A DNA stretch of 41,853 nt from Pirellulaceae bacterium (GTDB lineage: Bacteria; Planctomycetota; Planctomycetia; Pirellulales; Pirellulaceae). The translations under genes and the position numbers were made by a program. The notes under the pieces are model-generated. The model ran no database searches. It was given only the letters and a program-made list of their open reading frames with translations, and had not been told where the DNA came from. Shown here in pieces: positions 1,851 through 41,853 of this stretch (position 1 is its first letter; every line of letters starts with the position of its first letter). The DNA is taken from contig JAKVBY010000048.1 of NCBI GenBank assembly GCA_022446825.1, forward strand, positions 25,094-66,946, in the 5' to 3' direction.

Positions 1851-1919
1851 CGATTCTCACCCGAACAGATACGTTTGCATCCTATCCGTGATCTCACTTC
1901 CGTCTTCAACCAGCAAGCA

Positions 1920-2489
1920 CTAGTTGCTGACGCGCTCCACATAGTCACCTGTCCGGGAATCGATTTTGATAACGTTGCCTTCCTTAATAAAACCAGGAAC
2001 AATGAATTCCCCACCGGTTTCCACAATGGCGGGTTTGGTGACATTTGTTGCCGTATCGCCTTTCGCGCCGGGTTCACATTGAGTCACTTGCAATTCAACA
2101 TGATTGGGGGGAGTCATGGTAATCGGATTGCCATTCCACAGAATCATCGAACAGGCCAGACCTTCCTTAAGATATCGCCAGAGATCATCGATTTGATCAC
2201 CCGAAAGTTCATACTGTTCGTATGTCTTGTTGTCCATAAAGACAAACGTGTCACCCTGTCGATAGAGGTACTGCACATCGATTTCTTCGACATCTGCCGC
2301 TTCGACTGATTCGCCACCTTTATAATTGCGTTCCAAAAGGGTTCCACGAATGAGGTTCTTCATGCGCAAGGTGTAAATGGCGTTGCCTTTTCCCGGTTTG
2401 CGAAAAGTTGATTCAACCACCAAATACGGCTCGCCGTCTAATTGAATTTTGAGTCCTTTACGGAAGTCGCTTGTCTTGTACGTTGCCAC
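1920..2489 (-). CDS. efp: Translation elongation factor P
   Basis: The 189-residue protein has the EF-P length and three-domain order: KOW-like N-terminal domain, OB domain, C-terminal OB domain ending in KIDSRTGDYVERV. The modification loop reads RKPGKGN, placing Lys34 exactly at the beta-lysylated position of E. coli EF-P. EF-P rescues ribosomes stalled at consecutive prolines. The start is a GTG (bases 2489-2487), chosen because the translated ATYKTSDF aligns residue for residue with E. coli; GGGA lies about eight bases upstream. The next gene on the strand is epmA, and epmB diverges just upstream, so this locus encodes the factor and both main modifying enzymes. Confidence 0.96.
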   Translation of the reverse strand: MATYKTSDFRKGLKIQLDGEPYLVVESTFRKPGKGNAIYTLRMKNLIRGTLLERNYKGGESVEAADVEEIDVQYLYRQGDTFVFMDNKTYEQYELSGDQIDDLWRYLKEGLACSMILWNGNPITMTPPNHVELQVTQCEPGAKGDTATNVTKPAIVETGGEFIVPGFIKEGNVIKIDSRTGDYVERVSN

Positions 2490-2539
2490 GTTTCGTTCCC
2501 TACTTCGATTTAAGTCCGTCTATGGTTATTCTACGAAGC

Positions 2540-11535: not shown

Positions 11536-12388
11536 AGTGATCTCCCACTAGCCGAGCCACTGTGCCTCGACCGACAGATTCGTATGCTGCTTCAAAGACA
11601 AGACATGCTCGAAGTGCATCGACCCCGGTTACCAATGGCGCGCGTTGCTGGTTGAGCGCATTGACAAACTCTTGTAGTTCTGTCAGACGTGCTATCTCTC
11701 CTTCACCCGTTGTCAATGAAATGGATTGTTCACCGCGAAACAATAACTGTTGATTGTGATGATCATCCGCATAGGCAGCACCGGTACCGCCGATGACGGA
11801 CAACGAAAAGTAGTTTTTTGTTGAAGTAGGTAACGTCGCCCCATCAATTAAAACCATGCCCTCACCAGGAAAGCCGAGGTGCAGCTGGAAATGGCGGTTC
11901 TTTTTATTACTCTCATTTTCAGCCAGAGCAAAAATTTCCGTCGGCATTGTCTGAAACATCCAGATTGCCAGATCAATCTCGGCGACCAGATTGGCTAAAT
12001 GCGGTTGCCAATGGTGCATACGAATCAGACCAAGGTTTCCTAGTTCTCCCGAGTCCAAACTTTGTTTGATGGCACATACGGCTGGCAGATAGCGTCTGGA
12101 ACCAACCATTAAGCGGACATCTTGGGTTTTGCACGCTTCTAACAGTTCGGTAACCAACTCCGCAGATCCAGGTGGTTTCACAAGAAATAGGTGGTGACCA
12201 CGGGCCGCAACAAACCGCCAGTCTTCTTCTTGACTGTCTCGCGGACAGAGGACCACCGCATCAAATCCTTGTCGATCTAGCTCCGTGACATCCGCCAGGC
12301 GCGCTATACTCGCAGCGCGCGTGCGCGGCGCAAGTTTCAAATATTCCTCCACATCACGGTCGTTTCCAATGACTGCCAGACGAAGCAT
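11525..12388 (-). CDS. Short Gfo/Idh/MocA-like protein
   Basis: A 287-residue protein, shorter than the typical 330-380 of the family. It begins MLRLAVIGNDRDVEEYLKLAP, a Rossmann start lacking the canonical glycine-rich loop. The next landmarks are DAVVLCPRD, HHLFLVKPPGSAELV (Lys-Pro without the preceding Glu) and an R-R-Y-x-P segment. The C-terminal domain has EIDLAIWMFQTMPTEIFAL and a final FVNALNQQRAPLVTGVDALRACLVFEAAYES, the usual helix pair at the end of these proteins. The weak nucleotide-binding loop suggests a diverged or non-catalytic partner of the downstream family member, whose start it overlaps. It has 685 bp of gene-free DNA upstream, the likely site of the operon promoter. Confidence 0.75.
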   Translation of the reverse strand: MLRLAVIGNDRDVEEYLKLAPRTRAASIARLADVTELDRQGFDAVVLCPRDSQEEDWRFVAARGHHLFLVKPPGSAELVTELLEACKTQDVRLMVGSRRYLPAVCAIKQSLDSGELGNLGLIRMHHWQPHLANLVAEIDLAIWMFQTMPTEIFALAENESNKKNRHFQLHLGFPGEGMVLIDGATLPTSTKNYFSLSVIGGTGAAYADDHHNQQLLFRGEQSISLTTGEGEIARLTELQEFVNALNQQRAPLVTGVDALRACLVFEAAYESVGRGTVARLVGDHYEC

Positions 12389-13073
12389 TTCGGTCGCAAT
12401 CGCTTTCGCAGAGGTCCAAGTGTTCGGACAAAGCCCGAAAATAATACGTGCTCAATGGAAGCCAAAAACAAATGCACCATCCAATATGCACATCCGTTGT
12501 ACATAGCCGCAGGCGAGAATGATCCCACAACTTCTCTTAAGCCCCAGGCTGTTAAGTGCCAGGGACGTTTAGTGTAACAATTCCAACCATGAATGACATG
12601 TGTAATCCAGGCACCCTGGAGGTCCCGTTCGTAACCTTGTAGGAATGAGCTCGCGCGTGGCAGCCAGGTACATTTTCAAAATTAGGTCGTCTCTCTCAAA
12701 CAAGATTACCATTCATCGGTAATGAACAGAGCGTAAATAGTGTATTTTTACAGCACCGCATGTTGAGTTAACTACTATGACATATCCGTGGCTTCTCGTT
12801 TTCAGTGTCAGGTGGGAAGCCCACATTTTTACAGCGGCACTTTCTGTGGCTTATTGTCGACACAAGCAGGACCCGTGGAAAGTAAAGGTGGATCATGGGG
12901 ATCAAATACCGGGCCTTTTCTCGCACCTTCCATCCCTTACTTGTCCTTCTCAACGCAACCTGACCCAAAGCACAATCAAGACTGTTCATCTTGGCGTCTG
13001 TATTTTACGAAAGACGGTTCCTCCTGCGCAAACGCCAGAGACAACAAAGCAACGTAGCACAAACAACTGGCAA
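12389..13073. other. Long gene-free stretch upstream of the oxidoreductase pair
   Basis: The largest gap in the window, about 685 bp, between the oxidoreductase start and the stop of the leftward sulfatase. Frames of up to 104 codons exist (for example 12777-13091 on the plus strand) but none shows a domain, a good ribosome binding site or consistent codon use. I see no tRNA, repeat or mobile element. It may hold the promoter and 5' leader of the oxidoreductase operon, or decayed coding sequence. Confidence 0.35.
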
Positions 13074-14483
13074 CTATTGAACTTTGCCTAAGGGTCGCGA
13101 AGATTTTAGTGTCTTTGCCCATCGCTGGTCCGTTCCCTGCCTGGACTCATTTCCGAGCCGACGCATCGCATCCTTAGCAAGACTTTGCATTTTGCGGACA
13201 ATTTCGGGGTACTCTGCAGCCACGTCTACCGTCTCCTGAAGATCCTGTTGAAGGTTTACTAGTTTCGCTTTGCGTCCTGGACCAGTGGGATCTGTGGATG
13301 CCCAGTTTGGGGATGTCCGATGCAAGGGTAAGTGATATTTCCAGTATCCCATGCGAACGGCCTGAAGCTGTCGACGTCGATAATAGAAAAAAGCCTGATA
13401 AGGAGACTTGGCCTGATCTTCTGCCAGCAAAAGACTTTGAATGTCAAAACCGTCGATCGGCCGTTGTGGACCGTTGGCACCCGCAAAGCTACAAAATGTT
13501 GGCAAAATATCCATGGTCGTTGTCAGCGCGTCACACTCCGCGGCCGCGGGAATCTTTCCAGGCCAGTGAGCAATCATCGGCACACGCATGCCACCTTCCA
13601 AGGTTCCCCCTTTGGCACCTGCCAGGGGCCGATTCGAACCACCATGGCGCCCGTTGGAACCATTATCTGAGGTAAAGATAATCAGCGTATTATCGACAAT
13701 CTCTAGGCGTTCAAGGCAAGCCCGAAGCTGTCCCGTAGACCAGTCAATCTCCTCGACGCAATCACCGTAACGCCCGTTTCTACTCGCCCCCTGAAAATCT
13801 TTCGAGGCAAACAGAGGGAGATGAGGAAACGTGTGCGGTAAATAGACAAAGAACGGTTCTGAATGATGCTTTTCGATAAACTGAATTGCCTGTTTCGTGT
13901 ACCGCTGGGTAAGGGTCGATTGATCTACCGGAGCTTCTACAACAGTGAGTTGCTCGACAAGTGGTAGAGGTGGATCTCCACGGCCGGCGTGCTGCATATC
14001 GTTCGAATAGGGAATACCGAAATAGTAATCGAACCCATGGCGCGTCGGCAGATGTTCGGGTTGATCACCAAGATGCCATTTACCAATGCAGGCGGTTGCA
14101 TAGCCTTTTCCCTTGAGGGCCTCGGCAACCGTCAGTTCATCAGGATGCATTCCCCGCCGACTGCGTGGAATAAGTACCCAGTGTCCCGTAGCATCTTCAT
14201 GCATCCCAACCCGTCGGGGGTAGCAACCCGTTAACAAGCTGGCTCGCGAAGGTGTGCATACCGGACTTGATGAGTAAAAATTCGTAAATCGAATCCCGTT
14301 TTTAGCAAGACTGTCGATTTCTGGCGTGCGATTCTTCGTCGACCCAAAACAACCAAGATCTCCATACCCTAAATCGTCACAGACGATGAGGACAAAGTTT
14401 GGCGGCTTTTCCAGAACCTGTCCGGAAACCGCCTGCAAAGAATTCACAATTCCCACAAAAAGTAGCGTGTAGACTCTGCTCAT
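13074..14483 (-). CDS. Secreted arylsulfatase-type sulfatase (CTPSR)
   Basis: A 469-residue type I sulfatase with an N-terminal signal peptide (about residues 1-21, ending VSGQ). The metal-site motif DDLGYGDLGCFG is followed by the sulfatase signature CTPSRASLLTG, whose Cys76 is the residue matured to formylglycine. GKWHLG and the FTSDNGSNGRHGG segment supply further active-site residues. The C-terminal subdomain ends in a basic tail. It hydrolyses a sulfate ester, in this context probably on an algal polysaccharide or a fragment of one. The ATG at 14483 is preferred over the GTG just before it. A second sulfatase lies about 150 bp upstream on the same strand. No formylglycine-generating enzyme is in the window. 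The carbohydrate target cannot be read from the sequence. Confidence 0.92.
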   Translation of the reverse strand: MSRVYTLLFVGIVNSLQAVSGQVLEKPPNFVLIVCDDLGYGDLGCFGSTKNRTPEIDSLAKNGIRFTNFYSSSPVCTPSRASLLTGCYPRRVGMHEDATGHWVLIPRSRRGMHPDELTVAEALKGKGYATACIGKWHLGDQPEHLPTRHGFDYYFGIPYSNDMQHAGRGDPPLPLVEQLTVVEAPVDQSTLTQRYTKQAIQFIEKHHSEPFFVYLPHTFPHLPLFASKDFQGASRNGRYGDCVEEIDWSTGQLRACLERLEIVDNTLIIFTSDNGSNGRHGGSNRPLAGAKGGTLEGGMRVPMIAHWPGKIPAAAECDALTTTMDILPTFCSFAGANGPQRPIDGFDIQSLLLAEDQAKSPYQAFFYYRRRQLQAVRMGYWKYHLPLHRTSPNWASTDPTGPGRKAKLVNLQQDLQETVDVAAEYPEIVRKMQSLAKDAMRRLGNESRQGTDQRWAKTLKSSRPLGKVQ

Positions 14484-14645
14484 CACTTGCTGGCCGGTGG
14501 TTTATGATCTCGGTGATGCGACATGCGTTCCGTGAAACTTAGGCAGATCTGTTTTTCGTACGCTAAAAACAATTGACGCCCTGATCTGGCAAAGAAACTT
14601 GGTTCCACAAGAGGTAAGCCGAATACCCTGATTGGCGATTGATGA

Positions 14646-16136
14646 TCACCGCTCTTTCTCCGTAGAAGGAAAACGCTGGCGGCGGTCGCTGGCGACCGGC
14701 TTGCCTGAACGCAAATTCCACCATTCATGTGCTCGAGCGGGATCATAACCTGGATTGTGGATGGGAATCCGCGCGGCAACCTGCTGCCGCCAACGCTGGA
14801 GTTTATGGGTTAGATCCATAACACGTCCTGGTTTTTCACTCACGAGATTCGTTGTTTCACCAAGATCCTGCGCAAGATGATACAGTTCTTTGTCACCTGT
14901 TCCATCTAGATATTCAATCAGTTTCCATTCACGCTCTCGGATACTGCTGGCAGGTCGATCATGGTGATAATGTGGATAGTGCCAATAAAGAGCTGACCGT
15001 GGAAGTTTTACAGCCGGTTGAGTGAGCAGGGGTAAGAGACTGTAGCCATCAATTGTCTGATGCTCTGGCAACTGACCACCCGCCAACTCGACAAACGTCG
15101 GATAAAAATCATGGCTGATCGTCGGTTCTGAAGACACAGTTCCAGCCTGCGTCAACGGTGGATATTTAATAATCAGCGGGACGCGGATACCCCCTTCGTG
15201 TAACGCACCCTTTTCCCCTTTGAGTGGTTCTTGCGTTGCCACGGTATCATCTGCATGCGCGCGGTAATCATACCGTCGATAGAGACCGCCATTGTCCGAC
15301 GAGAAAACAATCATAGAGTTTTCGGCGAGACCTTGGGCTTGAACCTCATCCAGAATTCGACCGACTAAATCATCACAATGCTCGACCAAGGCTGCGTAAA
15401 CAGGATGCGGTAATTTCTGGCCTGTTTGCTCAGATTTGATGCGATATTTTTCAACTTTGTCTGACATCGCCGCCAGCGGGATGTGAACGGCAAAAGGGGA
15501 AACCATCAAAAAAAAAGGGCGTGTTTTGTTTTGTTGGATGAACTCGATACAAAGATCAGCCTCAAAATCCGTACGAAACTGGCCTGGTTTGGGTTTGATC
15601 TCGGGATGCGAGCTGACACGATAATTTCCCGGCAGGTGGGGACCCCCAATCACACGACTGTAGTCATAACCCTGCTTGTCTGGCCAAAAGTTGCGCCCTG
15701 TATCAAGGTGCCATTTTCCGACATAACCGGTCGTGTAATTCACTGTCTTCAGAGCTTCTGCCACCGTTACGATATCCAGAGGCAAGGCCATCGTGGTCTG
15801 TGGTGTAATCACCCGTTCAAATGGTCGCCAGTGCCCAGGAATGTGCGCCGTGATCCCTATCCTCGCCTGATTTTGACCTGACTGCAGCGCACATCGCGTC
15901 GGCGAACAGACGGCCCCCGATGCATAAAAATCGGTAAAACGGATCCCTTCCAAGGCGAGCTGATCAATACGCGGTGTTTCGACAAATTCATTGCCGTAAC
16001 AACCAAGATCTTTCCAACCAAGATCATCAATCAGTATCAGAATTATGTTTGGTTGGTCAGCCGCCAAGGATACCGAGAAATTAGCTATCGAAAGCCACAA
16101 GCCACCGACGAGCGTCAAGACGATTCTGTTCTTCAT
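14646..16136 (-). CDS. Secreted sulfatase (CSPTR)
   Basis: A 496-residue type I sulfatase. The ATG at 16136 is chosen over an upstream TTG because GGAAAAGGG precedes it and it begins a clean signal peptide (MKNRIVLTLVGGLWLSIANF, cleaved near SLAA-DQ). Motifs in order are IDDLGWKDLGCYG, the signature CSPTRCALQSG with formylglycine Cys77, GKWHLDTGRNFWP, and FSSDNGGL. The C-terminal part has HYPHYHHDRPAS and a final tryptophan-rich segment, which differs from the neighbouring sulfatase, so the two are not recent duplicates and probably remove different sulfates. Likely role: desulfation of an extracellular or periplasmic glycan, together with the GH2-like and DUF1080 proteins nearby. Confidence 0.92.
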   Translation of the reverse strand: MKNRIVLTLVGGLWLSIANFSVSLAADQPNIILILIDDLGWKDLGCYGNEFVETPRIDQLALEGIRFTDFYASGAVCSPTRCALQSGQNQARIGITAHIPGHWRPFERVITPQTTMALPLDIVTVAEALKTVNYTTGYVGKWHLDTGRNFWPDKQGYDYSRVIGGPHLPGNYRVSSHPEIKPKPGQFRTDFEADLCIEFIQQNKTRPFFLMVSPFAVHIPLAAMSDKVEKYRIKSEQTGQKLPHPVYAALVEHCDDLVGRILDEVQAQGLAENSMIVFSSDNGGLYRRYDYRAHADDTVATQEPLKGEKGALHEGGIRVPLIIKYPPLTQAGTVSSEPTISHDFYPTFVELAGGQLPEHQTIDGYSLLPLLTQPAVKLPRSALYWHYPHYHHDRPASSIREREWKLIEYLDGTGDKELYHLAQDLGETTNLVSEKPGRVMDLTHKLQRWRQQVAARIPIHNPGYDPARAHEWWNLRSGKPVASDRRQRFPSTEKER

Positions 16137-16246
16137 CGTGGCCCTTTTCCGAAACAATCAGTTTCATGAACCGTCGTTTTTCTGGAGTGTTGGATCCCCC
16201 ACACCAAGCAGTCGCTCCACGTCGCTCCCTGAGCGCGCTTAACAGT

Positions 16247-16930
16247 CTACTTCGCATCTGCTGAGAGTTCTCTCACACGGATCGTGTTGTATTCGACCTT
16301 ACTCTTGGGGTCATGGCATTGCAGAGCGATGTAGCCGCCCAAAAGCCGCGAAGCCTGCTCTGCAGGTTCAGTAAACGTGGCGGCCAACTGACCATTTAAG
16401 AAGGTTGTGATGGTGCGACCCTTGACGATCACGACATATTCAAACCATTCACCGTCAGCGACCACCGATTTTTCCAGATTCTTATAGTTGTAGATACTGC
16501 CGGTTTTCTTGGGGTCACTATAATCGTTACTGCAGACTTGAGCCTCATAGCCCTGGGCCAACGGCCAGCCAGTGTCATGCCACTTGGCGTGCACGTAAAT
16601 CCCCGAGTTGGACGCTGGGTGAATGAACACTTTCGCCCGAAGTTCCATATCTCCAAACTTGCCGCCGTTTTCTCCTCCGACATAGTAAAGATGGGCACGT
16701 TTTCCATGGGTGACAATATTGCCGTTTTCAACATAGGCGGATGGTTGGTTTTCATTGATTTTCCAACCACTCAACGTTTCTCCATCAAACAATAATTGAA
16801 ACCCCTGTTCCGATTCTTTTTGTGTCAGAGAATTCGTTTCCTTGCTCGGTGAATCAGCAGTAACGGTATCGTTGCCTAAGAGGGTACAAACAAAAAGCGT
16901 AGCGAACGTAAGCTGTGGTAGTTGATTCAT
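16247..16930 (-). CDS. Secreted DUF1080 protein (3-keto-disaccharide hydrolase family)
   Basis: A 227-residue protein with a signal peptide (MNQLPQLTFATLFVCTLLGN) followed by a single DUF1080 concanavalin-like domain. Hallmarks are FQLLFDGETLSGWKI near the start, SNSGIYVHAKW, a GYEAQVCSND segment, the EWFEYVVIVKG strand and a closing LLGGYIALQCHD. GGAG lies upstream of the ATG at 16930; an earlier in-frame ATG at 16999 has no signal peptide. Members of this family have been reported to hydrolyse 3-keto-glycosides, working with Gfo/Idh/MocA-type dehydrogenases. Both protein types occur here, separated by the sulfatases, so a shared 3-keto-sugar route is a reasonable inference but not proven. 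Confidence 0.88.
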   Translation of the reverse strand: MNQLPQLTFATLFVCTLLGNDTVTADSPSKETNSLTQKESEQGFQLLFDGETLSGWKINENQPSAYVENGNIVTHGKRAHLYYVGGENGGKFGDMELRAKVFIHPASNSGIYVHAKWHDTGWPLAQGYEAQVCSNDYSDPKKTGSIYNYKNLEKSVVADGEWFEYVVIVKGRTITTFLNGQLAATFTEPAEQASRLLGGYIALQCHDPKSKVEYNTIRVRELSADAK

Positions 16931-17066
16931 CGTCTGCTCCCGTAAGTGATAGAGTTCCGGGCAACCCAACCGCACCCGTGCTGAATGGAACCTCGGCAAT
17001 GTAAGTCTTCAGCATGGATTCCAACAGCCACCCTTGCAACCGGGCATGCGTCACGGAAACGGCCTT

Positions 17067-18044
17067 CTATTTCCCCACCAGCACCGCTCTGATGGGAAAG
17101 TGATCTGACGGATAGCGACCATCTTGCTTCCAGATATCAATCGAGGCACTTCGTGTCTGAAAATGTGTATTGTGGAGAATCCAATCAATCCGTCCGCTAC
17201 TACGCTGACCTGTCCACCCTCCAAATGTACCTTCACCAGATTGGCGTTCTGGATAAGCCACCCGGAAGGTGTCGTAAAGAGCAAATTCGCCTGCCGGATT
17301 TTCTCCAATCAGTGCTCGGTACGGCGCGCTACCTTCGTCACAATTAAAGTCCCCCGTGACAACAACGCGAATCTCTCTGCCAAGATTTTCGAGGTATCGT
17401 CGAATCAGTCGCGCGGCTTCCAGCCGCGCTTTTACGCCACGATGATCAAAGTGGGTGTTCACAAACACCAGTTCCAATAATTTTTTTCCCGCCTGTTGTT
17501 TGTCTCGCAAATGCAACCAACTCGCTATGCGTGGCAACGAAGAATCCCAACTCTTACTACCCGGATCTTCCGGCTGGGAAGATAGCCAAAAAGTTCCTTT
17601 GCCAAGCACTTCAAATCGATCCGCACGGAAGAACATACCGCACTGTTCTCCCGCATCATTTTTTTCTCGGCCCACGCCGTAATACGTATATTCTGACAAC
17701 TGTGCTCGTAAATAGTCTGCTTGGAAATTCAAGGTCTCCTGGGTACCAAGTAAATCTGGTTGAAAACGTTGAATTGCTTTGGCAACTAGTTGTTTGCGCT
17801 GACGCCAACGATTCATGCCATCGTTCGCCGTGCCATAGCGGATGTTAAAACTCATAACACGTAAAGTACCGTCCACATCCTGTGGACTTGACTCTACGGC
17901 CATCCAATGGAGGCTCACAACCAGAACAAAGGCGTGACTTGTTAGGTTTCGTTTTTTGATGATTGACTTTCCTCTTGTCCCAGCGTGAGAAACAACTCTG
18001 GAAAAGATCCTTTTTGATCGCCTGCTGTAGAAATCGGCAATCAC
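17067..18044 (-). CDS. Secreted endonuclease/exonuclease/phosphatase family protein
   Basis: A 325-residue frame with an EEP (DNase I-like) fold. Motifs in order: LRVMSFNIRYG, DLLGTQET (metal-binding Glu), ELVFVNTHFDHRG (catalytic His region), VVVTGDFNCDEGS (Asp/Asn pair) and RYPSDHFPIRAVL (final Asp-His). All catalytic residues are present, so an active phosphodiesterase or phosphatase is likely. A hydrophobic stretch near residues 38-52 looks like a signal peptide, which would place the true start nearer residue 30 than the GTG at 18044. A strong AAGAGGAAAG site precedes tandem ATC codons around 17958-17963. It follows prfB by 15 bp. Members of this type often sit beside sugar genes; the substrate is unknown. 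Confidence 0.85.
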   Translation of the reverse strand: MIADFYSRRSKRIFSRVVSHAGTRGKSIIKKRNLTSHAFVLVVSLHWMAVESSPQDVDGTLRVMSFNIRYGTANDGMNRWRQRKQLVAKAIQRFQPDLLGTQETLNFQADYLRAQLSEYTYYGVGREKNDAGEQCGMFFRADRFEVLGKGTFWLSSQPEDPGSKSWDSSLPRIASWLHLRDKQQAGKKLLELVFVNTHFDHRGVKARLEAARLIRRYLENLGREIRVVVTGDFNCDEGSAPYRALIGENPAGEFALYDTFRVAYPERQSGEGTFGGWTGQRSSGRIDWILHNTHFQTRSASIDIWKQDGRYPSDHFPIRAVLVGK

Positions 18045-31880: not shown

Positions 31881-32813
31881 GTGAGTTCACGCAAAGTCAT
31901 CATCACCTGTGCAATAACAGGTTCTATTCATACACCAACCATGTCTCCTCATTTGCCCATCACTCCAAACCAAATTGCTGATGGAGCTATTGGCGCAGCA
32001 AATGCTGGGGCCTCTATCCTCCATCTTCATGCGCGCCACCCAACGGACGGGAGCCCCACGCCCGATCCGGATGTTTTCCGTCAATTTCTTCCGAAGATCA
32101 AAGCTGAAACCAGCGCCATCATCAATATCACGACGGGTGGCGCACAAACCATGTCCATCGACGAACGATTAGAGGGACCTTTATCGCTGCAGCCTGAAAT
32201 GACCTCATTGAACATGGGATCCATGAATTTTGGTCTCTACCCGGCGCTTGAGAAATTCAAGGAATGGGAACATGAATGGGAACATGGATATCTTGAATCC
32301 TCGCGCAGTGGGATTTTTCGAAATACATTTTCGGATATTGAGGCAATCTTACAGCGCTTGGGACAAGGTTGTGGAACGCGATTTGAATTTGAATGCTACG
32401 ACGTTGGCCACCTCTACAATCTGGCCCATATGATTGATCGCGGGTTGGCAAAACCGCCGTTCTTTGTGCAGACAATTTTTGGCATTCTTGGAGGAATCGG
32501 AGCCGACATCGAAAACTTGGTGCACATGCGTCGTATTGCCGACAAACTTTTTGGCCAGGACTATCAGTGGTCCATTCTGGCGGCCGGACGCTTTCAGACC
32601 AGCTTTGTCACAACGGGAGCCATTATGGGTGGCAATATTCGCGTGGGCCTGGAGGACAATCTGTATCTGTCGAAAGGGGTGATGGCGGAAAGTAATGCGC
32701 AGCAAGTCACCAAAATCCGTTCCATTCTGGATGAATTGTCGCTTGAAATCGCGACGCCCGATGAAGTTCGTGAACTGCTAGATTTGAAAGGCGCAGATCA
32801 AGTTGATTTTTGA
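31881..32813 (+). CDS. BKACE / DUF849 beta-keto acid cleavage enzyme
   Basis: A 310-residue TIM-barrel enzyme of the 3-keto-5-aminohexanoate cleavage (Kce) family. These Zn-dependent enzymes cleave a beta-keto acid with acetyl-CoA to acetoacetate and an acyl-CoA. The HLHAR motif (His48, His50) supplies two metal ligands and FEFECYDVGHLYNL a Glu. VQTIFGILGGIG and GGNIRVGLEDNLYL are family signatures. The start is a GTG with GGAAGGAA about ten bases upstream. A 12-base tandem repeat (32262-32285) encodes EWEHEWEH. The substrate is not readable. It is 213 bp after the DUF1552 gene and its last 16 bases overlap, convergently, the DUF3817 gene. Confidence 0.9.
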   Translation: MSSRKVIITCAITGSIHTPTMSPHLPITPNQIADGAIGAANAGASILHLHARHPTDGSPTPDPDVFRQFLPKIKAETSAIINITTGGAQTMSIDERLEGPLSLQPEMTSLNMGSMNFGLYPALEKFKEWEHEWEHGYLESSRSGIFRNTFSDIEAILQRLGQGCGTRFEFECYDVGHLYNLAHMIDRGLAKPPFFVQTIFGILGGIGADIENLVHMRRIADKLFGQDYQWSILAAGRFQTSFVTTGAIMGGNIRVGLEDNLYLSKGVMAESNAQQVTKIRSILDELSLEIATPDEVRELLDLKGADQVDF

Positions 32814-33253: not shown

Positions 33254-34006
33254 CTAACCAGAAGACTGCGGTGCGCTTCCACTGCTTTCCATCGGTTCTG
33301 GCAGCATATTTGTGATTTCACTCAAAACCCGTTCGGTGGTCCACACCTGAGTATAAACGCGGGCCATCGCTGCGAGGGCGGCGTCATGATGTTCCTCCTC
33401 AAACGTTGCGACAGCATCTTCTACAACAATGACATTGTAGCCTCGATCCGCCGCATCGCGGGCCGTCGTCTCCACACACATGTCGGTGGCCATGCCGGTG
33501 ATCACCAAAGTATCGAGGGCGAGATTTCGCAGGATTTGATCAATGCCTGTGCCATTAAACGCACTGCTGGCATTCTTATCAATCACCAATTCAGTCTCTA
33601 GCGGGGTGAGCAAATCTACAATCTGGTGTTCGCTTGTACCCTTTGACCAGAGGGTAGGTTTATTCGAACGTCCCAAAGCATCCAAGTCACGCCGTTGGCG
33701 CCGCGAAATCATATCCCGCCCATCAGGCACCAAAGGTCCGTGCCGGGTAAAAATAACTTCTCGCCGCAATGCTCGAAACTTGTCCAGAAGTAGGCGGGTT
33801 TGCGCCAGCGTTGTGTTGATCCGTGGCACATAGTATGCCGCAACTTGCGGATGCTGCTCTGTCAACATCTGGGTGATCCCGCAAGTTGGATTGGAACTAT
33901 AATTCTGATAGTCAACGACAAGTAAGCCTGCACGTGACCAATCCACATCAAAATCTGGCCAAGGCATGATCCAGGGCTCCGACAAATCGATGGGCCATAA
34001 GCTCAT
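33254..34006 (-). CDS. Isochorismatase-family cysteine hydrolase
   Basis: A 250-residue cytosolic hydrolase with the complete Asp-Lys-Cys triad: Asp32 in LLVVDYQN, Lys144 in VIDKNASSAFNGTG and Cys177 in TDMCVETTARDAADRGYNVIVVEDAVAT. The family includes N-carbamoylsarcosine amidase, nicotinamidase, biuret amidohydrolase and isochorismatase. The SAFNGTG and TDMCVETTARDA phrases fit the amidase side better than isochorismatase, but the substrate is unassigned. It starts 44 bp after the CocE-type gene stop and likely belongs to the same transcript. A carbamoyl or amide substrate would fit the upstream nitrilase-family hydrolases. Confidence 0.88.
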   Translation of the reverse strand: MSLWPIDLSEPWIMPWPDFDVDWSRAGLLVVDYQNYSSNPTCGITQMLTEQHPQVAAYYVPRINTTLAQTRLLLDKFRALRREVIFTRHGPLVPDGRDMISRRQRRDLDALGRSNKPTLWSKGTSEHQIVDLLTPLETELVIDKNASSAFNGTGIDQILRNLALDTLVITGMATDMCVETTARDAADRGYNVIVVEDAVATFEEEHHDAALAAMARVYTQVWTTERVLSEITNMLPEPMESSGSAPQSSG

Positions 34007-34050
34007 GGGAAATCTCGTTACTGAAGAAAACGAAAATGATGATGACCGCC

Positions 34051-35772
34051 CTAGGGTCTGCAGGGCAAGACAATATGTGACCGATGCAACGAATCGTGAT
34101 AGACCCGTTCCGTTGCCACTGCCGTACGTTTTCCGAAGGGTCCCTCGGCGGTATTGGTGTTGCGGTCATAAAGTGGAAAATAAGCGCCGCAAATGTCGAC
34201 GCGCATTCGATGCCCTGGACGAAACTGGGCTGCGACCGGGCCAAGATCAACGGTGATTTTGTAGATTTTGTCCGGTTGCAACGGAGTGGGATGGGATTCC
34301 GATTCTCGGAAACTACCGCGCAGGATCCCTACCGCAAGGTTCTGTGCAAATCCGTCCGGGTGAACATCGACAAGTTTAACGACCCAATCGGCGTCCGCGG
34401 TATCGGACGACACAAACAGTTCGGCTTTAATATCGCCCGCAAATGTGAGCGCCTCCGGCAGCGGTGGGGATGTATACACCAATACGTCGTCGCGCTGTTC
34501 AATCTCTCTCTGATCCACAGGCGCCCAAGTCGCCGCCATGAGAGGCCGAGCATCCGTCACAAAACATGCGGGTGTGGGGTTATCAGGATCGGCCTGAAAA
34601 GAATCCACAACTTCATCGCTCGTGGGCGCCACACGATCAAGGGTTCCAGCGCCGTTGCTTGTATTCGCGCGACCATCCGAGTGGAAGTAAAAAGAGGTGG
34701 CTTCAAAGCCTGCCGGTGGCCAGTTTGTCGCCTTCCGCCAAACATTGTCACCCATGGAAAAATATCTCACCGGCAGATCGACACGCCCGGTACCATCACC
34801 TTTCAAATAACGATCAAACCAGACCAAATTTTCAGCAGCTGAATCTATCACTGCCTGCTCGCCAAAATCAACTTCGCCAACCTTCGCCTGCCCAATGGTC
34901 CCGTGATCCCAGGGCCCCAAGATGAGTTGTTGCTGTTGCCGGGTTTTTGGGTTGCCTGCGTGCTGTCGCATTTGAACAAAATTGTTTACCGATTCACGTG
35001 CAAAGAAATCGTAGTAACCCACAATATGCTGCATCGGTAACTCAAGATTCACGATCTCTTCGGTCAACTCCACGCGTTTCCAATAACCATCCAATCGAGG
35101 GTGGGTCAGCATTCCCGCCAACCAGGGAATCGACCAACCCACTTGTTGGTCGATTTCGCTCAAAGGCAGGTGCATCAATGTCTGTTGCCAATCGTTGTTC
35201 AAAACGGCACCGTCTGGTTTTTCCGCATTCCCGCCGGCCCAGCCTGCAATTAACGACAACCTCACAGCACCGCCAAGATAAAGATTCCGGTAGAAACTAC
35301 TCCAAGTCGCCGTGGGCGCAATCGTCACCAGACCCGGAGGTTTTTCCACTGCGGCCTGCCACTGCGTGGCACCAACGTACGAGGCCCCCCACATCCCCAC
35401 GCGTCCGTTACACCACGGTTGTCGCTGCAGCCATTCCACCGTGTCATACCCATCTTGGCCTTCGGTGTTGTAAGGATAAAAGTTTCCCTGGGACTGGAAT
35501 CGACCGCGACAATCTTGAACCACGGCAATGTAACCAGCAGAGGCAAATGCTTCGGCGGCCGTTTGGGCACGAGCTTTGTTATAAGGCGTGCGCATTAATA
35601 AAACTGGCAAGGGCCGTCCAGCGACCTCGCCATAGATATCTGTCGATAACAGGATCCCGTCACGCATCGGCACGGTGATGGTTTCTTTTTCAACCGGCGC
35701 TGCGGGGTCCGCCGCGACACCTTGACCGATTAACAGAAAGCAACTGAACAACAAAAAAACAATTCGTTTCAT
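34051..35772 (-). CDS. Secreted CocE/NonD family hydrolase (peptidase S15 type)
   Basis: A 573-residue alpha/beta hydrolase; the ATG at 35772 starts a signal peptide (MKRIVFLLFSCFLLIGQGVAA), so it acts outside the cytoplasm. The N-terminal catalytic domain has VPMRDGILLSTDIY, the oxyanion region VVQDCRGRFQSQG, the nucleophile motif GASYVG (Ser), and GPWDHGT with the catalytic His. The C-terminal jelly-roll (from about residue 355) carries ALTFAGDIKAELFVSSDTADADWVVKLVDV, the typical X-Pro dipeptidyl-peptidase C domain. Known members are cocaine esterase, alpha-amino acid ester hydrolase and glutaryl-7-ACA acylase, so an ester or amide bond is the target. It follows the ABM gene by 61 bp. Confidence 0.9.
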   Translation of the reverse strand: MKRIVFLLFSCFLLIGQGVAADPAAPVEKETITVPMRDGILLSTDIYGEVAGRPLPVLLMRTPYNKARAQTAAEAFASAGYIAVVQDCRGRFQSQGNFYPYNTEGQDGYDTVEWLQRQPWCNGRVGMWGASYVGATQWQAAVEKPPGLVTIAPTATWSSFYRNLYLGGAVRLSLIAGWAGGNAEKPDGAVLNNDWQQTLMHLPLSEIDQQVGWSIPWLAGMLTHPRLDGYWKRVELTEEIVNLELPMQHIVGYYDFFARESVNNFVQMRQHAGNPKTRQQQQLILGPWDHGTIGQAKVGEVDFGEQAVIDSAAENLVWFDRYLKGDGTGRVDLPVRYFSMGDNVWRKATNWPPAGFEATSFYFHSDGRANTSNGAGTLDRVAPTSDEVVDSFQADPDNPTPACFVTDARPLMAATWAPVDQREIEQRDDVLVYTSPPLPEALTFAGDIKAELFVSSDTADADWVVKLVDVHPDGFAQNLAVGILRGSFRESESHPTPLQPDKIYKITVDLGPVAAQFRPGHRMRVDICGAYFPLYDRNTNTAEGPFGKRTAVATERVYHDSLHRSHIVLPCRP

Positions 35773-35833
35773 AACAGAAACTCTTTTCCCAAAGCATCGC
35801 AAAGTGTCGGGCACCAATTCGGTACAAATACCT

Positions 35834-36172
35834 TTACCAATTTAACAAACCTGGCTTTTGAGCTTCCCAACCAGACTCGGAAGGAAACACTGTCTGCATG
35901 ACGACTTTTTCGAACTCGCCATCGAACATCGCCGAAACTTTCTCACGCCAAGCAAGGAAGTGGGGTGCTTCAAGATGCGCCTGAAAGGCATCCTCATCGC
36001 GATAAACTTCATAGAGATAAAATCTGGTCGGTATTTCTGGATCGCGATTTATGTCAAATCGAAAACAACCAGGTTCATCACGACAGGCACCCTCTGCATC
36101 ACCAAAACTTGCCTCACCAAATTCTTCCACGTTTTCAGCTTTAACATTGATCGTTACAAAAATTGCATACAT
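35834..36172 (-). CDS. Antibiotic biosynthesis monooxygenase (ABM) domain protein
   Basis: A 112-residue dimeric ferredoxin-like (ABM) protein. Signatures are MYAIFVTINVKAENVEEFGEAS, the EPGCFRFDINRDPEIPTRFYLYEVYRDEDAFQAHLEAPHFLAW block typical of YgiN/LsrG-like quinol monooxygenase-type proteins, and a short C-terminal extension. AAGGAT seven bases before the ATG fixes the start. Members act on quinols, phospho-AI-2 or unknown substrates, often in catabolic operons. It is the first gene of a leftward group, ahead of the CocE-type hydrolase, with 473 bp of gene-free DNA upstream. Function here unassigned. Confidence 0.87.
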   Translation of the reverse strand: MYAIFVTINVKAENVEEFGEASFGDAEGACRDEPGCFRFDINRDPEIPTRFYLYEVYRDEDAFQAHLEAPHFLAWREKVSAMFDGEFEKVVMQTVFPSESGWEAQKPGLLNW

Positions 36173-36645: not shown

Positions 36646-37503
36646 TTATAGTTCCAGATATTCTTCCAATGCCTCGCGCATGACTTGAGCGTTCGGTTCA
36701 ATGCCAGTCCAAATTTTAAAGGCAATGACGCCCTGATTAACCAACATGCCCAGTCCGTCAAGGGTCGTGCATCCGAGTTCCCGCGCACCCCGGATGAGCT
36801 GGGTGTTTGGTGGGTTGAAGATAACATCGGCAACCACCATTTCTGATGTCAAAGAGGCCATGTCCAAAGGCACATGCGCCGTCTCGTCCCCAAGGCCAAT
36901 CGAGGTCGCGTTGATGACAATTTCAGTTCCACCTTCAAGTACATGGTCGCCCTCAAGAACAACTAAGTCCGCGTTCACTTGAACTCGCTCATTAAGCAAG
37001 TCAACCAGTTTTTGACCGCGTTCTTGGCCACGGTTAACAATCGTGATCTTTGCCACCTTGGCCAACCCTAATTCAACAGCAATCGCCCGGGCAGCCCCTC
37101 CAGCACCAAAAAGAACGACTTGTTTTTCTTGCGGATCAATTACCTTTCGCAACGATTGAATGAATCCTTTTCCATCCGTATTCTCACCAATCAGTTGGCC
37201 ACCGTCACGATTGATGCAATTGACGGCACCCATGAGAGCTGCTGCTTCGCTCAATTCATCCAGATGTTCGATCGCAGCCACTTTATGTGGGATTGTCAAA
37301 TTACCACCTTTGAAACCTAACGCTCTCAGTCCCTTAATGGCAGCTGACAAATCTTTCGGACAAACTTCCAGAGTAAGATAACGCCAATCCAAAGCGGCCT
37401 CTTCAAAGGCGCGTTCCATCATGAATTGCGTTGGGTTGCCGGCAACCGGTTGACCTAAACAGCAAACAATTGTTTCAAGCAAAGGATCCTGCACCTTTTT
37501 CAT
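36646..37503 (-). CDS. Shikimate dehydrogenase-like oxidoreductase (AroE family)
   Basis: A 285-residue AroE-family protein. The N-terminal substrate domain keeps the catalytic Lys74 (GGNLTIPHK) and Asp110 (ENTDGKG); VVLFGAGGAARA is the NADP-binding loop, and the C-terminus has LGMLVNQGVIAFKIWTG as in AroE. The substrate-binding segment that normally reads Ser-His-Ser-x-Ser-Pro is here AGNPTQ (residues 21-26), so the two carboxylate-binding serines are replaced by Asn and Thr. That makes biosynthetic shikimate dehydrogenase uncertain; a quinate/shikimate-like catabolic enzyme or a different acid substrate is possible. It lies 208 bp downstream of the nitrilase-RraA-nitrilase block on the same strand. 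I leave the symbol empty for that reason. Confidence 0.8.
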   Translation of the reverse strand: MKKVQDPLLETIVCCLGQPVAGNPTQFMMERAFEEAALDWRYLTLEVCPKDLSAAIKGLRALGFKGGNLTIPHKVAAIEHLDELSEAAALMGAVNCINRDGGQLIGENTDGKGFIQSLRKVIDPQEKQVVLFGAGGAARAIAVELGLAKVAKITIVNRGQERGQKLVDLLNERVQVNADLVVLEGDHVLEGGTEIVINATSIGLGDETAHVPLDMASLTSEMVVADVIFNPPNTQLIRGARELGCTTLDGLGMLVNQGVIAFKIWTGIEPNAQVMREALEEYLEL

Positions 37504-37711
37504 TTCTCCATCAATGGAACTGGGAAGTCTTTTATATCACAGCATTCCAGGGATTTGAGCGCGCCTATTTACCATAACAATGCTTCACCAAAGCACGCAA
37601 ACGATCAAACAAACGCTGCATTTTGAAGCAGGATCCGTCGGATTGCAATGTTATCTCAAGCAGTCCATCGGGCTTCCGTTTCCCTGGAACTGCAGCCGCT
37701 ACGATCTGTGC

Positions 37712-38692
37712 TTAATCGGCTGTCGCCGCATCACGTTTTTCTTTTTCATGTTCCATGCGCCAGCCTGGTAAAGTAATTGATTCTTGTGGTTCAACAAGTT
37801 TTCCATAAAGTTCGGGACGACGGGCTTTGAGATAACGCTGACCGGAAGACTCTTGGAGCTTCTCCGGAGTTAATAGACCAACCACCACATCGTCCTCCAG
37901 CGCAGTGCTCTCCACCACAATTTCCCCAAACGGATCCAAAATCATCGCCAATCCAGGTTTCACGGTGTCGTAATCCCAACCAATTGGGTTACTAAAAACA
38001 GCATAAATGCCATTCTCATAGGCTCTCGTCGGTAACCACCGCATTAACCAATCGCGCCCTTTTGGTCCTTGGAATTCTTTCCGTAAGCGGGCTGGGTCAC
38101 GATGTCGATTCTCCCACAGCGACTGCTCAACCACACCACGACCGGGCATCATGGAGGGCAAGCAACAAGTGACGTGGGGCATAAAAATAATTTCGGCCCC
38201 CAGCATCGCGGTAATACGAACATTTTCAGCGATGTTGTTGTCGTAACAAATCAAGAATCCAACTTTACACCCGAGTAAATCGATCACCTTAAATTCGTTA
38301 CCTGCGGAAAGATGTGGATTTACAAAGGGATGAATTTTTCGAAATTTTGTTACATAGCCGTCGGGTGCTACTGTAACGTACGTGTTGAATAGTTCATCGT
38401 TTTCATCCCTTTCGACCAATCCCGCCATCAGAACAACATCGAATTCTTTGGCGATCTCTTCTAGTTGTCGAACCGAGTTACCACCCGGTACCGCTTCGGC
38501 GATCGCCAGCAACTGATTTTTGTCCAAAGGCTGAATCCAAGAATAGCCTGGAATACAGCCTTCGTGAAAACTGACAATTTCAGCACCTGCATCGACTGCA
38601 CGACGGGTGAGGGTGCGCACGCGAGCGAAATTAAAATCTTTGTCGTTGTCGCGATTCTCAAATTGGGCCGTAGCAACACGAATGTCACGCAT
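37712..38692 (-). CDS. Carbon-nitrogen hydrolase (nitrilase superfamily), copy 1
   Basis: A 326-residue cytosolic hydrolase with the nitrilase triad Glu44 (FHEGC), Lys119 (KFRKIH) and Cys149 (FLICYDN). It carries a longer insertion (about residues 175-215, PSMMPGRGVVEQSLWENRHRDPARLRK) than the second copy. The C-terminal tail contains RYLKARRPELYGKL. Family members hydrolyse amides, N-carbamoyl groups or nitriles; the bulky tail and insertion suggest an omega-amidase or carbamoylase-type enzyme, but the substrate is unassigned. AGGA precedes the ATG. It follows the RraA-like gene by 20 bp. Confidence 0.9.
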   Translation of the reverse strand: MRDIRVATAQFENRDNDKDFNFARVRTLTRRAVDAGAEIVSFHEGCIPGYSWIQPLDKNQLLAIAEAVPGGNSVRQLEEIAKEFDVVLMAGLVERDENDELFNTYVTVAPDGYVTKFRKIHPFVNPHLSAGNEFKVIDLLGCKVGFLICYDNNIAENVRITAMLGAEIIFMPHVTCCLPSMMPGRGVVEQSLWENRHRDPARLRKEFQGPKGRDWLMRWLPTRAYENGIYAVFSNPIGWDYDTVKPGLAMILDPFGEIVVESTALEDDVVVGLLTPEKLQESSGQRYLKARRPELYGKLVEPQESITLPGWRMEHEKEKRDAATAD

Positions 38693-38712
38693 GGGGCTGT
38701 CCTGCTAAGCAA

Positions 38713-39381
38713 TTAAAGCACGCCGTATTTTGCGTAAGCGTCAGTTGCTTTCATTCCCTGACGAATCGCATCACGAGTGATATTTTCGTCGTGGACCTTT
38801 TGCCATGCGTTCCGAATGGCTTCGGTTTCAATCTCCTTAGGTACGACCACAACACCGTCCACGTCAGCAAATACAAGGCTCTGAGGCTCAAAACGCACGC
38901 CATCGATATCGACCGGGATATCGATATCGATGACCCGCTGACGATTTTGACTATCGTAAATAGATGTCCCGCGCGCAAAACACGCAAACCCCATTTCTCT
39001 CATCTTGGCCACATCCCTTGCCGCACCATCCACAATGGCACCAACACAACCACGATTGCTGGCGGCTGTCGATAGTAATTCACCCCAGATCCCTGAACGC
39101 ATCGAGCCGGCTGCCGCAGCAATCAATACCGAATCAGTTTCGCACTCATCAACGGCGCGCAATTCTAATTCATAAGGGTTAGGGTCGACGTGTGCCATCT
39201 CGGTCCAAAGGGTTGTTTTACAACGGCCCACAAGTAAGCGATCGGTGGTCCAGGGTCGTAGCGACACGCGCGGTGATTGATGTGGATAGCCGAGAGCATC
39301 CAAGGCATCACAGACAACTGCGGCATAAAGTGACTCACGCATCATCTCAATGGTGATTGGTTCTTGAGAGTTCCCACGCAT
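38713..39381 (-). CDS. RraA-family protein (HMG aldolase-like)
   Basis: A 222-residue protein of the RraA / 4-hydroxy-4-methyl-2-oxoglutarate aldolase family. Landmarks are VVCDALDALGYPHQ, the WGELLSTAASNRGCVGAIVDGAARD stretch with the conserved Arg122-Asp123 pair, GFACFARGTS, and FADVDGVVVVPKE. In the aldolases the Arg-Asp pair is followed two residues on by an acidic metal ligand; here Lys126 takes that place, so the chemistry may differ. GGGAG precedes the ATG by six bases. It sits between two nitrilase-family genes with gaps of 10 and 20 bp. A metal-dependent C-C lyase or decarboxylase role is inferred. Confidence 0.87.
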   Translation of the reverse strand: MRGNSQEPITIEMMRESLYAAVVCDALDALGYPHQSPRVSLRPWTTDRLLVGRCKTTLWTEMAHVDPNPYELELRAVDECETDSVLIAAAAGSMRSGIWGELLSTAASNRGCVGAIVDGAARDVAKMREMGFACFARGTSIYDSQNRQRVIDIDIPVDIDGVRFEPQSLVFADVDGVVVVPKEIETEAIRNAWQKVHDENITRDAIRQGMKATDAYAKYGVL

Positions 39382-39391
39382 GTTTTTCTCC

Positions 39392-40288
39392 CTAACTTCG
39401 CACCTGTTCTATGGCGAGTTCAGCAAACAACTCGGGGCGCCGGGTCCGCAACGTATAATTGGGCAAGCTCCGTTCAGTCGCTAAACGTGTTGCGTCAAGT
39501 TCACAAACAATCATTTCATCTTCCACAACCTGCTCTTGTGTAGAAGCCAGCTTTTCACCATCCGGAGCAAACACCAAAGCTCCACCACAATGATGTGGTT
39601 GATTAGGCGAATCGTCGGGATACAGATCGACATAACCAGCACGTCCTGCCTGGTTCGCTAGGACGGCAAAACAAGCATTTTCTCGTGCTCGCTGAGCGTA
39701 ACAGGACGTGAAATATTCATGTGTGTGTTTTCGGGCCGTGGCCATCGAAGCGGTATCGTCGGTCCACATTTTCACTCGCGCCGCATGGGGCATGAGGAGC
39801 ACATCCGCACCACGTAAGGCAAGAATTCTCGCCACCTCCGGAAACTGGTTGTCATAACAAATGATCGTGCCGATTTTACATTTACCAATATCAAAAACCG
39901 GCATCTCGAGGCCACCCTTGTAATAAAGGACTTCATCTCGTGACATATGGATTTTTCGCTGTTTGCCTATGTATCCCGACGGCCCCAACAAAACTTGTGC
40001 GTTGTAGACAACATCGTTTTCTTTTTCACTCAGGCCCACCGACAAAAATTGACGATGCTTTTGAGCGAGTTGGATTAATTGTCGCGTGCTGGGACCGTCC
40101 GGAATCGATTCGGCAAGGTCCCAGGTGTTGGGCGTGCAGTGGCCGTGCACCAGCAACTCCGGAAACAATACCAGCTCGGCCCCTTCGGAAGCCGCTTTTC
40201 CGCACCAAGTATCAACAACCTCAAGAATAGTCTCCAATTGATCAAAGGGACTGTTAATACTAATGGCGGCGACGCGAATCGATTGCAT
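39392..40288 (-). CDS. Carbon-nitrogen hydrolase (nitrilase superfamily), copy 2
   Basis: A 298-residue hydrolase with the triad Glu44 (LFPELL), Lys112 (KQRKIHMS) and Cys144 (IICYDN). It ends in TLRTRRPELFAEL, closely matching the tail of copy 1 (RYLKARRPELYGKL), so the two belong to one subfamily and may have arisen by duplication around the rraA-like gene. Overall similarity is modest, so the substrates probably differ. It follows the MFS transporter by 26 bp and precedes the RraA-like gene by 10 bp, which argues for one transcript and a shared imported substrate. Confidence 0.9.
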   Translation of the reverse strand: MQSIRVAAISINSPFDQLETILEVVDTWCGKAASEGAELVLFPELLVHGHCTPNTWDLAESIPDGPSTRQLIQLAQKHRQFLSVGLSEKENDVVYNAQVLLGPSGYIGKQRKIHMSRDEVLYYKGGLEMPVFDIGKCKIGTIICYDNQFPEVARILALRGADVLLMPHAARVKMWTDDTASMATARKHTHEYFTSCYAQRARENACFAVLANQAGRAGYVDLYPDDSPNQPHHCGGALVFAPDGEKLASTQEQVVEDEMIVCELDATRLATERSLPNYTLRTRRPELFAELAIEQVRS

Positions 40289-40314
40289 GAGGACTTCTTC
40301 ATTCTGGTCAATGG

Positions 40315-41853
40315 TTAGTTGGGGGATAAGTCTGCAATGTCTCTCTTGGGAGGGTCTTGGTCAAGCGACTTCGTGCAATCTACACCTAACCAGCAGACTG
40401 CACTGAGTACATACATGAGTCCCACCACGTAAAAAAGTTGTTCATATCCAGGAATGGTGATCGCCGCTCCATCGATCGATACCGTGTGAGCGTATCGGTC
40501 GAGTACAAAACCAAACAATGGTGGACAGAGAATCCCGCCGACCGCACCTGCCGAGTTAATGATTCCAAAGACAGTTGCCGAAAAACGGCCGCCCATATCG
40601 GTGCAGGTACCCCACACGGTCGGCTGACTCCAGTCGGTAAAGAATTTTGCACAAAACAACGACCCAGCAGCATAGGCTGGATCGGCTTGCTGGATAGCGA
40701 TAAGCATCCAGATGGCAGCAACCACTTTTCCTGTAAATCCAATCAGACTGCGGCCCCAACGGTAGCTACCGGTCAGCCAAATGGTTAAGTCATTCAAGAA
40801 CCCGCCAAGAAATCCACCGAACGCACCACCTAATAAGGGTAACGCGATGTAATAACCCGATTCTTCAATCGGTAAACGCAACGCCTCGAGAAAAAAACCG
40901 CCCAGAAACAGACTATAAAGTGCATCGGCACCTGCGCTATTGAACTGTTGCACGATGAAGAACCACATGCTGCGACTCTTGAGTGCGTTACCCCAGCGAA
41001 GTGTCTTGCGATTCTCACCCTCGTGCGCAGCAGGTATCAAAATAGCCGTGTGATCTTCTATCACCTCGACACGGACTTGCAGGCGGGAGGCCACCGTATC
41101 AGCAGCTTTTTTCAGGAGCTCATCACCGGGGAGCGGCCCGGTGACAAACAGGGTGTACTCATCCGCGGCTGAATTGGTCAAGCGGATCTTCATGCCAGCA
41201 TCTTTCAAGGCCTCTTCTATTGCCATCGCCTTGGCACTGGGTATCATGCTGTCCGCTGGCTCACCTGGCTTGTGGGGATCATTATTTCCCAAGCGGATTT
41301 TAAAAGTCTCGCCGGATCCCGCGGGGACGCGCGGTCGTCCCGTATCCACGTCCACCTCGGGCGAGTTGCGAAAAACGAGGGCAAAAAGAATCGCAAAAAC
41401 GATCCCAATCATCGAGAGAATAATCAGGGCGGCCCGCCAACTTAATCCGTACCAACCCATTAAAACCGTTCCGAAAATAATCGGCGATAAGGCACCACCA
41501 CCGCGACCTGACAAAGATGCCACCATGGCTTGAGAAATCGTGCGGAACCGTCTCGGCACCCAACTGTGGGTCACTTTGGTGAGCGATGGATAAGTCCCGG
41601 CTTGGGCCACTCCGAAGGCCATGCGGACGCCTCCTAGGGCGAACAGATTACCCGTCGATCCATGCAACAAAAGGACGACGGACCAGAGAGCGATGATGCA
41701 TCCCAGGAACATGTGCGGACCAAAAAAATCGGCGACGACCCCACTCGGAATCTGTAAGGGTCCATAAGTCCAATTGAACATCCCTGCCAGCGTGCCAACT
41801 TGTGTATCGTTTAAACCGTACTCCTTCTTCAGTTCCGGTCCAATGAAGTTCCA
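40315..41853 (-). CDS. MFS transporter with soluble domain in the central loop, 5' end missing
   Basis: The frame runs open to the window end, so the N-terminus is missing; 512 codons are visible. The N-terminal half has the MFS phrase GPLQIPSGVVADFFGPHMFLGCIIALWS and WVPRRFRTISQAMVASLSGRGGGALSP, resembling anion:cation symporter-type (hexuronate/tartrate) permeases. After the sixth helix, about 130 residues (bases about 40970-41365) are soluble; they contain MAIEEALKDAGMKIRL and DELLKKAADTVASRLQVRVEVIEDHTAILIP, a beta-alpha-beta-like pattern. The remaining helices follow, with WSQPTVWGTCTDMGGRFSATVFGIINSAGAVGG. It is the first visible gene of the nitrilase-RraA-nitrilase block, so uptake of their substrate, perhaps an organic acid, is inferred. 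Confidence 0.88.
   Translation of the reverse strand, partial: WNFIGPELKKEYGLNDTQVGTLAGMFNWTYGPLQIPSGVVADFFGPHMFLGCIIALWSVVLLLHGSTGNLFALGGVRMAFGVAQAGTYPSLTKVTHSWVPRRFRTISQAMVASLSGRGGGALSPIIFGTVLMGWYGLSWRAALIILSMIGIVFAILFALVFRNSPEVDVDTGRPRVPAGSGETFKIRLGNNDPHKPGEPADSMIPSAKAMAIEEALKDAGMKIRLTNSAADEYTLFVTGPLPGDELLKKAADTVASRLQVRVEVIEDHTAILIPAAHEGENRKTLRWGNALKSRSMWFFIVQQFNSAGADALYSLFLGGFFLEALRLPIEESGYYIALPLLGGAFGGFLGGFLNDLTIWLTGSYRWGRSLIGFTGKVVAAIWMLIAIQQADPAYAAGSLFCAKFFTDWSQPTVWGTCTDMGGRFSATVFGIINSAGAVGGILCPPLFGFVLDRYAHTVSIDGAAITIPGYEQLFYVVGLMYVLSAVCWLGVDCTKSLDQDPPKRDIADLSPN

Follow-up and report, generated by a model that had tools for sequence, protein, structure and literature searches.

Within the RraA family, the HMG/CHA aldolase is a proven 2-oxo-acid enzyme (PMC5065237), and FlDet is a proven 2-keto-3-deoxy-glucarate (KDGR) dehydratase/decarboxylase of alginate and uronate breakdown (PMC8563752). 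TM-KFR of Tatumella morbirosei, a relative of the shikimate dehydrogenases, reduces 5-ketofructose (PMC7954740). Here we describe a cluster of genes in a draft genome of a Pirellulaceae bacterium (GCA_022446825.1; 6.17 Mb, 153 contigs, 94% complete, 0.65% contaminated) that brings an RraA-family protein together with a major facilitator superfamily (MFS) transporter and two nitrilase-superfamily amidases, hereafter N1 and N2. The cluster lies at the end of the window, which is the whole stretch of 41,853 nucleotides analyzed (positions 25,094 to 66,946 of contig JAKVBY010000048.1). We tentatively read the four genes MFS–N1–RraA–N2, at somewhat under an even chance, as a lineage-specific catabolic operon built from separately evolving planctomycete genes. 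A fifth gene, encoding an AroE-like dehydrogenase, follows on the same strand and is probably a neighbor with its own history rather than a part of operon function.

The family-wide search for N1 relatives covered 241 genomes, and a loose first look at a 392-genome sample of the phylum took in N1, N2 and RraA. For the MFS gene, relatives were looked for in 199 family genomes, and for the AroE-like gene in 34 genomes. The statistical tests ignore relatedness.

Structure of the four-gene cluster

On the minus strand, the order is MFS transporter (40315..41853), N1 (39392..40288), RraA-family gene (38713..39381) and N2 (37712..38692), with gaps of 26, 10 and 20 bp in the open reading frame list, and the AroE-like gene (36646..37503) begins after a further 208 bp (37504..37711). 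These coordinates agree with the five genes and the spacing given in the original prediction, and its family assignments were likewise borne out by Pfam matches to MFS_1 (E 1.8e-34), CN_hydrolase (3.8e-42 for N1 and 7.3e-39 for N2) and RraA-like (5.4e-32). Shine-Dalgarno-like sequences precede the RraA-family gene (GGGAG), N2 (AGGA) and the AroE-like gene (GGAG). Scans found no promoter-like or terminator-like site in the 208-bp gap, and the site numbers returned by these scans were not clearly above chance expectation. The GC content of the genes (0.478-0.528) is similar to that of the window, and an origin as foreign DNA was rejected on this basis. The end of the window is also the end of the contig (G000:C97, 66946 bases), so that the MFS gene, of which 512 codons are seen, lacks about 40 N-terminal residues and the upstream DNA is unseen.

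Both hydrolases belong to the nitrilase superfamily, with CN_hydrolase scores of 144.8 and 134.1 bits against a cut-off of 23.2. The Glu-Lys-Cys triad is intact in N1 (298 aa; E44-K112-C144) and in N2 (326 aa; E44-K119-C149), and is conserved in 20 of 20 N1 homologs and 82 of 82 N2 homologs. None of the curated NCBIfam cut-offs for N-carbamoylputrescine amidase, archaeal nitrilase or deaminated glutathione amidase was reached, all scores being far below. The C-terminal Arg-Arg-Pro-Glu-Leu motif that had been taken to link the pair is present in both proteins, but unrelated CN-hydrolases of this genome, with 27-29% identity to N1, have it too (C138, RRPELY; C24, RRPEMY), and we regard it as a general mark of the family rather than a signature of the pair. 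Origin of N1 and N2 by one recent duplication was also rejected, as they share 35% identity, far less than each shares with its own orthologs.

The RraA-family protein (222 aa) carries an acidic-X20-Arg-Asp motif in the form E-X20-RD, which 26 of 27 distinct homologs share. This corresponds to the motif of RraA-fold class II aldolases, on the assumption that Glu can replace Asp. Scores against the HMG/CHA aldolase (LigK/PcmE) models fell below their cut-offs (77.6 of 304.5 bits and 89.2 of 179). Judged by family and motif, the protein is probably a metal-dependent 2-oxo-acid aldolase or decarboxylase.

The transporter is of the galactonate/organic-anion type, although its score of 111.4 bits against the TIGR00893 D-galactonate transporter profile lies below the cut-off of 395. 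Its homologs adjoin genes for sugar-acid dehydratases of the enolase superfamily, and a D-galactonate dehydratase ortholog stands beside them in 5 of 16 loci (one was scored, at 323 bits against the NCBIfam cut-off of 311). In the tree, the window MFS is the sister (100/99) of the MFS at locus L173, which adjoins a D-galactonate dehydratase. No close copy of the dehydratase that flanks these relatives was found in this genome, where the best homologs reach just 37-38%; with such values, the idea that the flanking gene lies beyond the contig end was set aside. A separate feature of the transporter is its central loop, which measures 124 aa compared with 23-54 aa in about 30 homologs. Residues 166-290 (40984-41358) contain an extra domain of approximately 85-90 residues that is absent from these homologs and matched no Pfam family. 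A single-sequence structure model suggests, with low confidence (predicted local distance difference test score 64), a ferredoxin-like fold (beta-alpha-beta-beta-alpha-beta).

Gene partners in relatives and readings of the cluster

In relatives, the MFS, N1 and RraA genes all sit in catabolic neighborhoods; no link of this kind was seen for N2 or the AroE-like gene. Orthologs of N1 (E below 1e-60) occur in 15 of the 241 family genomes, and their recurrent neighbors are transporters. In genome G422 (locus L187), the N1 ortholog (74-75%) adjoins a member of the window's own MFS subfamily (53%), and a D-galactonate dehydratase gene scoring above the cut-off is adjacent as well. A different galactonate-type MFS lies directly upstream of N1 in G395, approximately 24 bp away, and likewise in G457, and SSF symporters are found near N1 in G404, G464 and G440. 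In G130, N1 adjoins a galactonate-dehydratase-like gene (272.9 bits, below the cut-off of 311). Seven genomes hold both N1 and MFS relatives (15 N1-positive and 19 MFS-positive, with the total taken as 199; Fisher p 9e-5, ignoring relatedness).

Orthologs of the RraA-family gene at 58-75% are common across the class. At seven of 15 such loci there is a gene for an M81/MlrC-like peptidase, for an AstE/DoeB-like deacylase or for a threonine-synthase/dehydratase-like pyridoxal phosphate (PLP) enzyme (PALP), compared with 0 of 75 control loci from the N2 and AroE-like sets; as the loci are partly interdependent, the p value of 9e-7 is too small. The positive ones are spread over several genera and two families. 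N1 stands beside the same PALP enzyme, with a distant M81 gene nearby, in a single genus (G504, G535). Homologs of N1 and RraA on plasmids (approximately 30-42% identity) occur in varied contexts and do not repeat the set. As a separate observation, in G452 (L186, 295-4555) the RraA gene is divergent from an operon of M81 (MlrC-like), DoeB-like deacylase and PLP enzyme genes that overlap or abut, and in several genera RraA is again accompanied by some of these genes.

In the operon that we tentatively favor, families and neighbors suggest the following scheme. The MFS protein would import a hydroxylated organic acid of the sugar-acid (galactonate) type, or a derivative, that bears an amide, a carbamoyl or an N-acyl group. 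N1 would hydrolyze the C-N bond of the substrate through its Glu-Lys-Cys triad, and N2 would provide a second step or act on a second substrate. The RraA-family enzyme, with a metal held by its acidic-X20-Arg-Asp motif, would then cleave or decarboxylate the resulting 2-oxo acid. Next door and outside the operon, the AroE-like enzyme probably reduces a keto-sugar-like substrate. Of the catabolic operon originally proposed, the tight four-gene cluster of importer, two amide hydrolases and RraA-family enzyme stands, without the AroE-like gene as a member. Its claim that no described pathway has this gene set also holds as far as the open-access literature goes, in which we found no paper describing it.

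Several observations weigh against this operon. MFS–N1–RraA–N2 were found together in no searched relative, and the five-gene set in no other searched genome (N1 in the 241 of the family; N1, N2 and RraA in the 392 of the phylum), so that cooperation of all four rests on their spacing in one draft genome. The genus is represented by this genome alone. N2 has no recurrent neighbor except among close strains, the upstream end of the cluster is missing at the contig edge, the solved structures closest to N1 and N2 belong to generic archaeal nitrilase-like amidases, and all NCBIfam scores of N1, N2, RraA and MFS are far under their cut-offs. The original prediction had expected a conserved pathway and had proposed a search for conserved neighborhoods in Planctomycetota; that search placed the orthologs in other neighborhoods, largely the scattering that it had named as evidence against itself.

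The most serious alternative, although we consider it unlikely, is that four functionally unrelated planctomycete genes were brought side by side through rearrangement and are transcribed together although they make up no single pathway. All N2 orthologs and most N1, RraA and MFS orthologs lie in different neighborhoods, as such a chance cluster would have it, and the set is unique among searched genomes. The 57 named relatives of N2 (48-78%), among them Planctomycetota, metagenome-assembled genomes labelled Gemmatimonadetes, Zipacnadia and Bacteroidota, have no other gene of the window set nearby. N2 is a stand-alone amidase gene that has ended up in the operon, and the view of it as a matched partner of N1 is not supported. 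Against a chance assembly stand the same-strand gaps of just 10-26 bp, the recurrence of the N1–MFS pairing in other genera and the rare PALP partner that RraA and N1 share in relatives.

A broader interpretation, which we hold to be improbable, is that the window operon is one assembly of an undescribed modular planctomycete pathway for hydroxy or amino sugar acids bearing amide or N-acyl groups. Interchangeable C-N hydrolases (nitrilase N1, M81/MlrC-like, DoeB-like) would open the substrate, a threonine-dehydratase-like PLP enzyme or a nitrilase would remove the nitrogen, and an RraA-family enzyme would cleave or decarboxylate the 2-oxo acid. If right, the operon reading favored above would give testable substrates and partners to RraA- and nitrilase-family proteins that are usually left 'hypothetical', and would link planctomycete RraA proteins to M81 amidases and PLP dehydratases.

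The cluster might instead serve nitrogen scavenging, with N1 and N2 freeing ammonia from amides or ureido compounds that have been imported, while RraA plays a regulatory or side role. That one operon holds two amidases of the same superfamily would suit this, as would the biuret-hydrolase-like isochorismatase gene that lies a further 2.6 kb past the AroE-like gene (99 bits, below the cut-off of 370). However, the surroundings of the MFS relatives, with D-galactonate dehydratase and other genes of the enolase superfamily, point to carbon acids, and the near-invariant RraA motif (26 of 27 homologs) is as expected of an enzyme. We consider this proposal quite improbable.

The AroE-like gene and other genes in the window

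The AroE-like protein matches Shikimate_dh_N plus SDH_C in Pfam and scores above the TIGR00507 (aroE) cut-off (242.2 vs 200.2 bits), so that automatic annotation would name the gene aroE. Its label holds at this superfamily level and fails at the level of shikimate dehydrogenase. The closest solved relative is the Gluconobacter 5-ketofructose reductase 7cok (E 2.4e-82), followed by a shikimate dehydrogenase at 2e-57; 7cok and TM-KFR represent a non-shikimate class within the shikimate dehydrogenase family. In a maximum-likelihood tree, the protein falls with 7cok in a 25-row clade with support of 100/100. All 25 rows have Asn-x-Thr/Ser where true shikimate dehydrogenases hold the Ser-x-Ser that binds the shikimate carboxylate; the window protein has N-x-T in place of Ser-x-Ser and keeps the Lys and Asp, in line with the pocket of the 5-ketofructose-reductase clade. 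Ser-x-Ser is kept in 14 of 14 planctomycete AroDE fusions and in 1nvt. The genome has its own 495-aa DHquinase_I–SDH (AroDE) fusion on contig C74, the AroE-like gene not being the housekeeping aroE, and long (495-592 aa) SDH-domain proteins are present in 17 of 17 genomes tested. A role as a shikimate or quinate enzyme was rejected on the 7cok match and clade, the N-x-T residues and the separate fusion. The protein is probably a keto-sugar-type reductase that makes no shikimate. A gene annotated aroE across Planctomycetes would accordingly represent a different enzyme class, with the AroDE fusion apparently responsible for the shikimate step.

Orthologs of the AroE-like gene (54-74%) occur in 22 of the 34 planctomycete genomes tested, most commonly beside a methyltransferase and a dethiobiotin-synthetase-like gene. 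The examined neighborhoods hold no MFS, RraA or N1/N2 orthologs, and three contain weak CN-hydrolase matches (27-42%). A five-gene pathway with the dehydrogenase as a reductive or oxidative step, as originally proposed, is very unlikely: the gene shares the strand and lies 208 bp on with no terminator- or promoter-like site found between, and a sugar-type reductase would suit a sugar-acid substrate, but it is a common separate gene of the 5-ketofructose-reductase clade with other neighbors in every examined relative.

Two further loci concern this enzyme type. The same genome has a second 5-ketofructose-reductase-type gene (C80:95814-96620; L222), of the subclade with a 7cok-like pocket (N, T, Ser), which adjoins sulfatase-like and cupin-like genes. 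On Rhizobium gallicum plasmid pRGM101b (L220, 7413-13126), a ketofructose-reductase-like gene lies between two GMC oxidoreductase genes and a multiheme-cytochrome-like gene, and the locus possibly represents oxidation of fructose to 5-ketofructose and its reduction outside acetic acid bacteria. On one of four alphaproteobacterial plasmids with close relatives of the AroE-like gene, a second GMC protein and a multiheme-cytochrome-like gene resemble, by eye, fructose dehydrogenase parts.

Elsewhere in the window, 473 bp after the AroE-like gene, leftward ABM/LsrG-like, CocE/NonD hydrolase and biuret-hydrolase-like isochorismatase genes occupy 33254-36172. A BKACE protein (31881-32813) scores 528 bits against the NCBIfam cut-off of 430 for 3,5-dioxohexanoate:acetyl-CoA acetone transferase. 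A 330-aa class II tRNA-synthetase-like protein and a divergent radical SAM protein of 365 aa (858-3568) are suggestive of the EF-P modification genes EpmA and EpmB. A polysaccharide-type cluster on one strand (10426-18044) comprises two GFO/IDH/MocA-type open reading frames, two sulfatases, a protein with a 3-keto-disaccharide-hydrolase domain and an endonuclease/phosphatase-family protein.

Comparison with described systems

The cluster resembles D-galactonate-type systems of MFS transporter and dehydratase in its MFS subfamily and in the dehydratase adjacency of relatives, and differs from them in having no dehydratase beside the MFS gene in the available sequence and in the extra domain of the cytoplasmic loop. 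N1 and N2 share the fold family and the Glu-Lys-Cys triad with PH0642 (1j31), the nitrilase/beta-ureidopropionase-like protein 3ivz and N-carbamoylputrescine amidase, whereas their scores are far lower than every curated cut-off (128 of 500 and 97 of 410). The window RraA shares fold family and acidic-X20-Arg-Asp motif with the HMG/CHA aldolase 3noj, although the similarity is distant, the motif has E for D and the NCBIfam scores are below the cut-offs. Its likeness to FlDet is likewise one of RraA fold family. The four alphaproteobacterial plasmid relatives of the AroE-like gene lie directly downstream of a GMC oxidoreductase gene, unlike the window gene, which has none adjacent, and the window clade has Thr where these four, 7cok and the planctomycete copies C80 and L261 have Ser. 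With the Gluconobacter 5-ketofructose reductase (7cok/7col), the AroE-like protein shares 51% identity over 266 residues, the Asn-x-Thr and the catalytic Lys and Asp.

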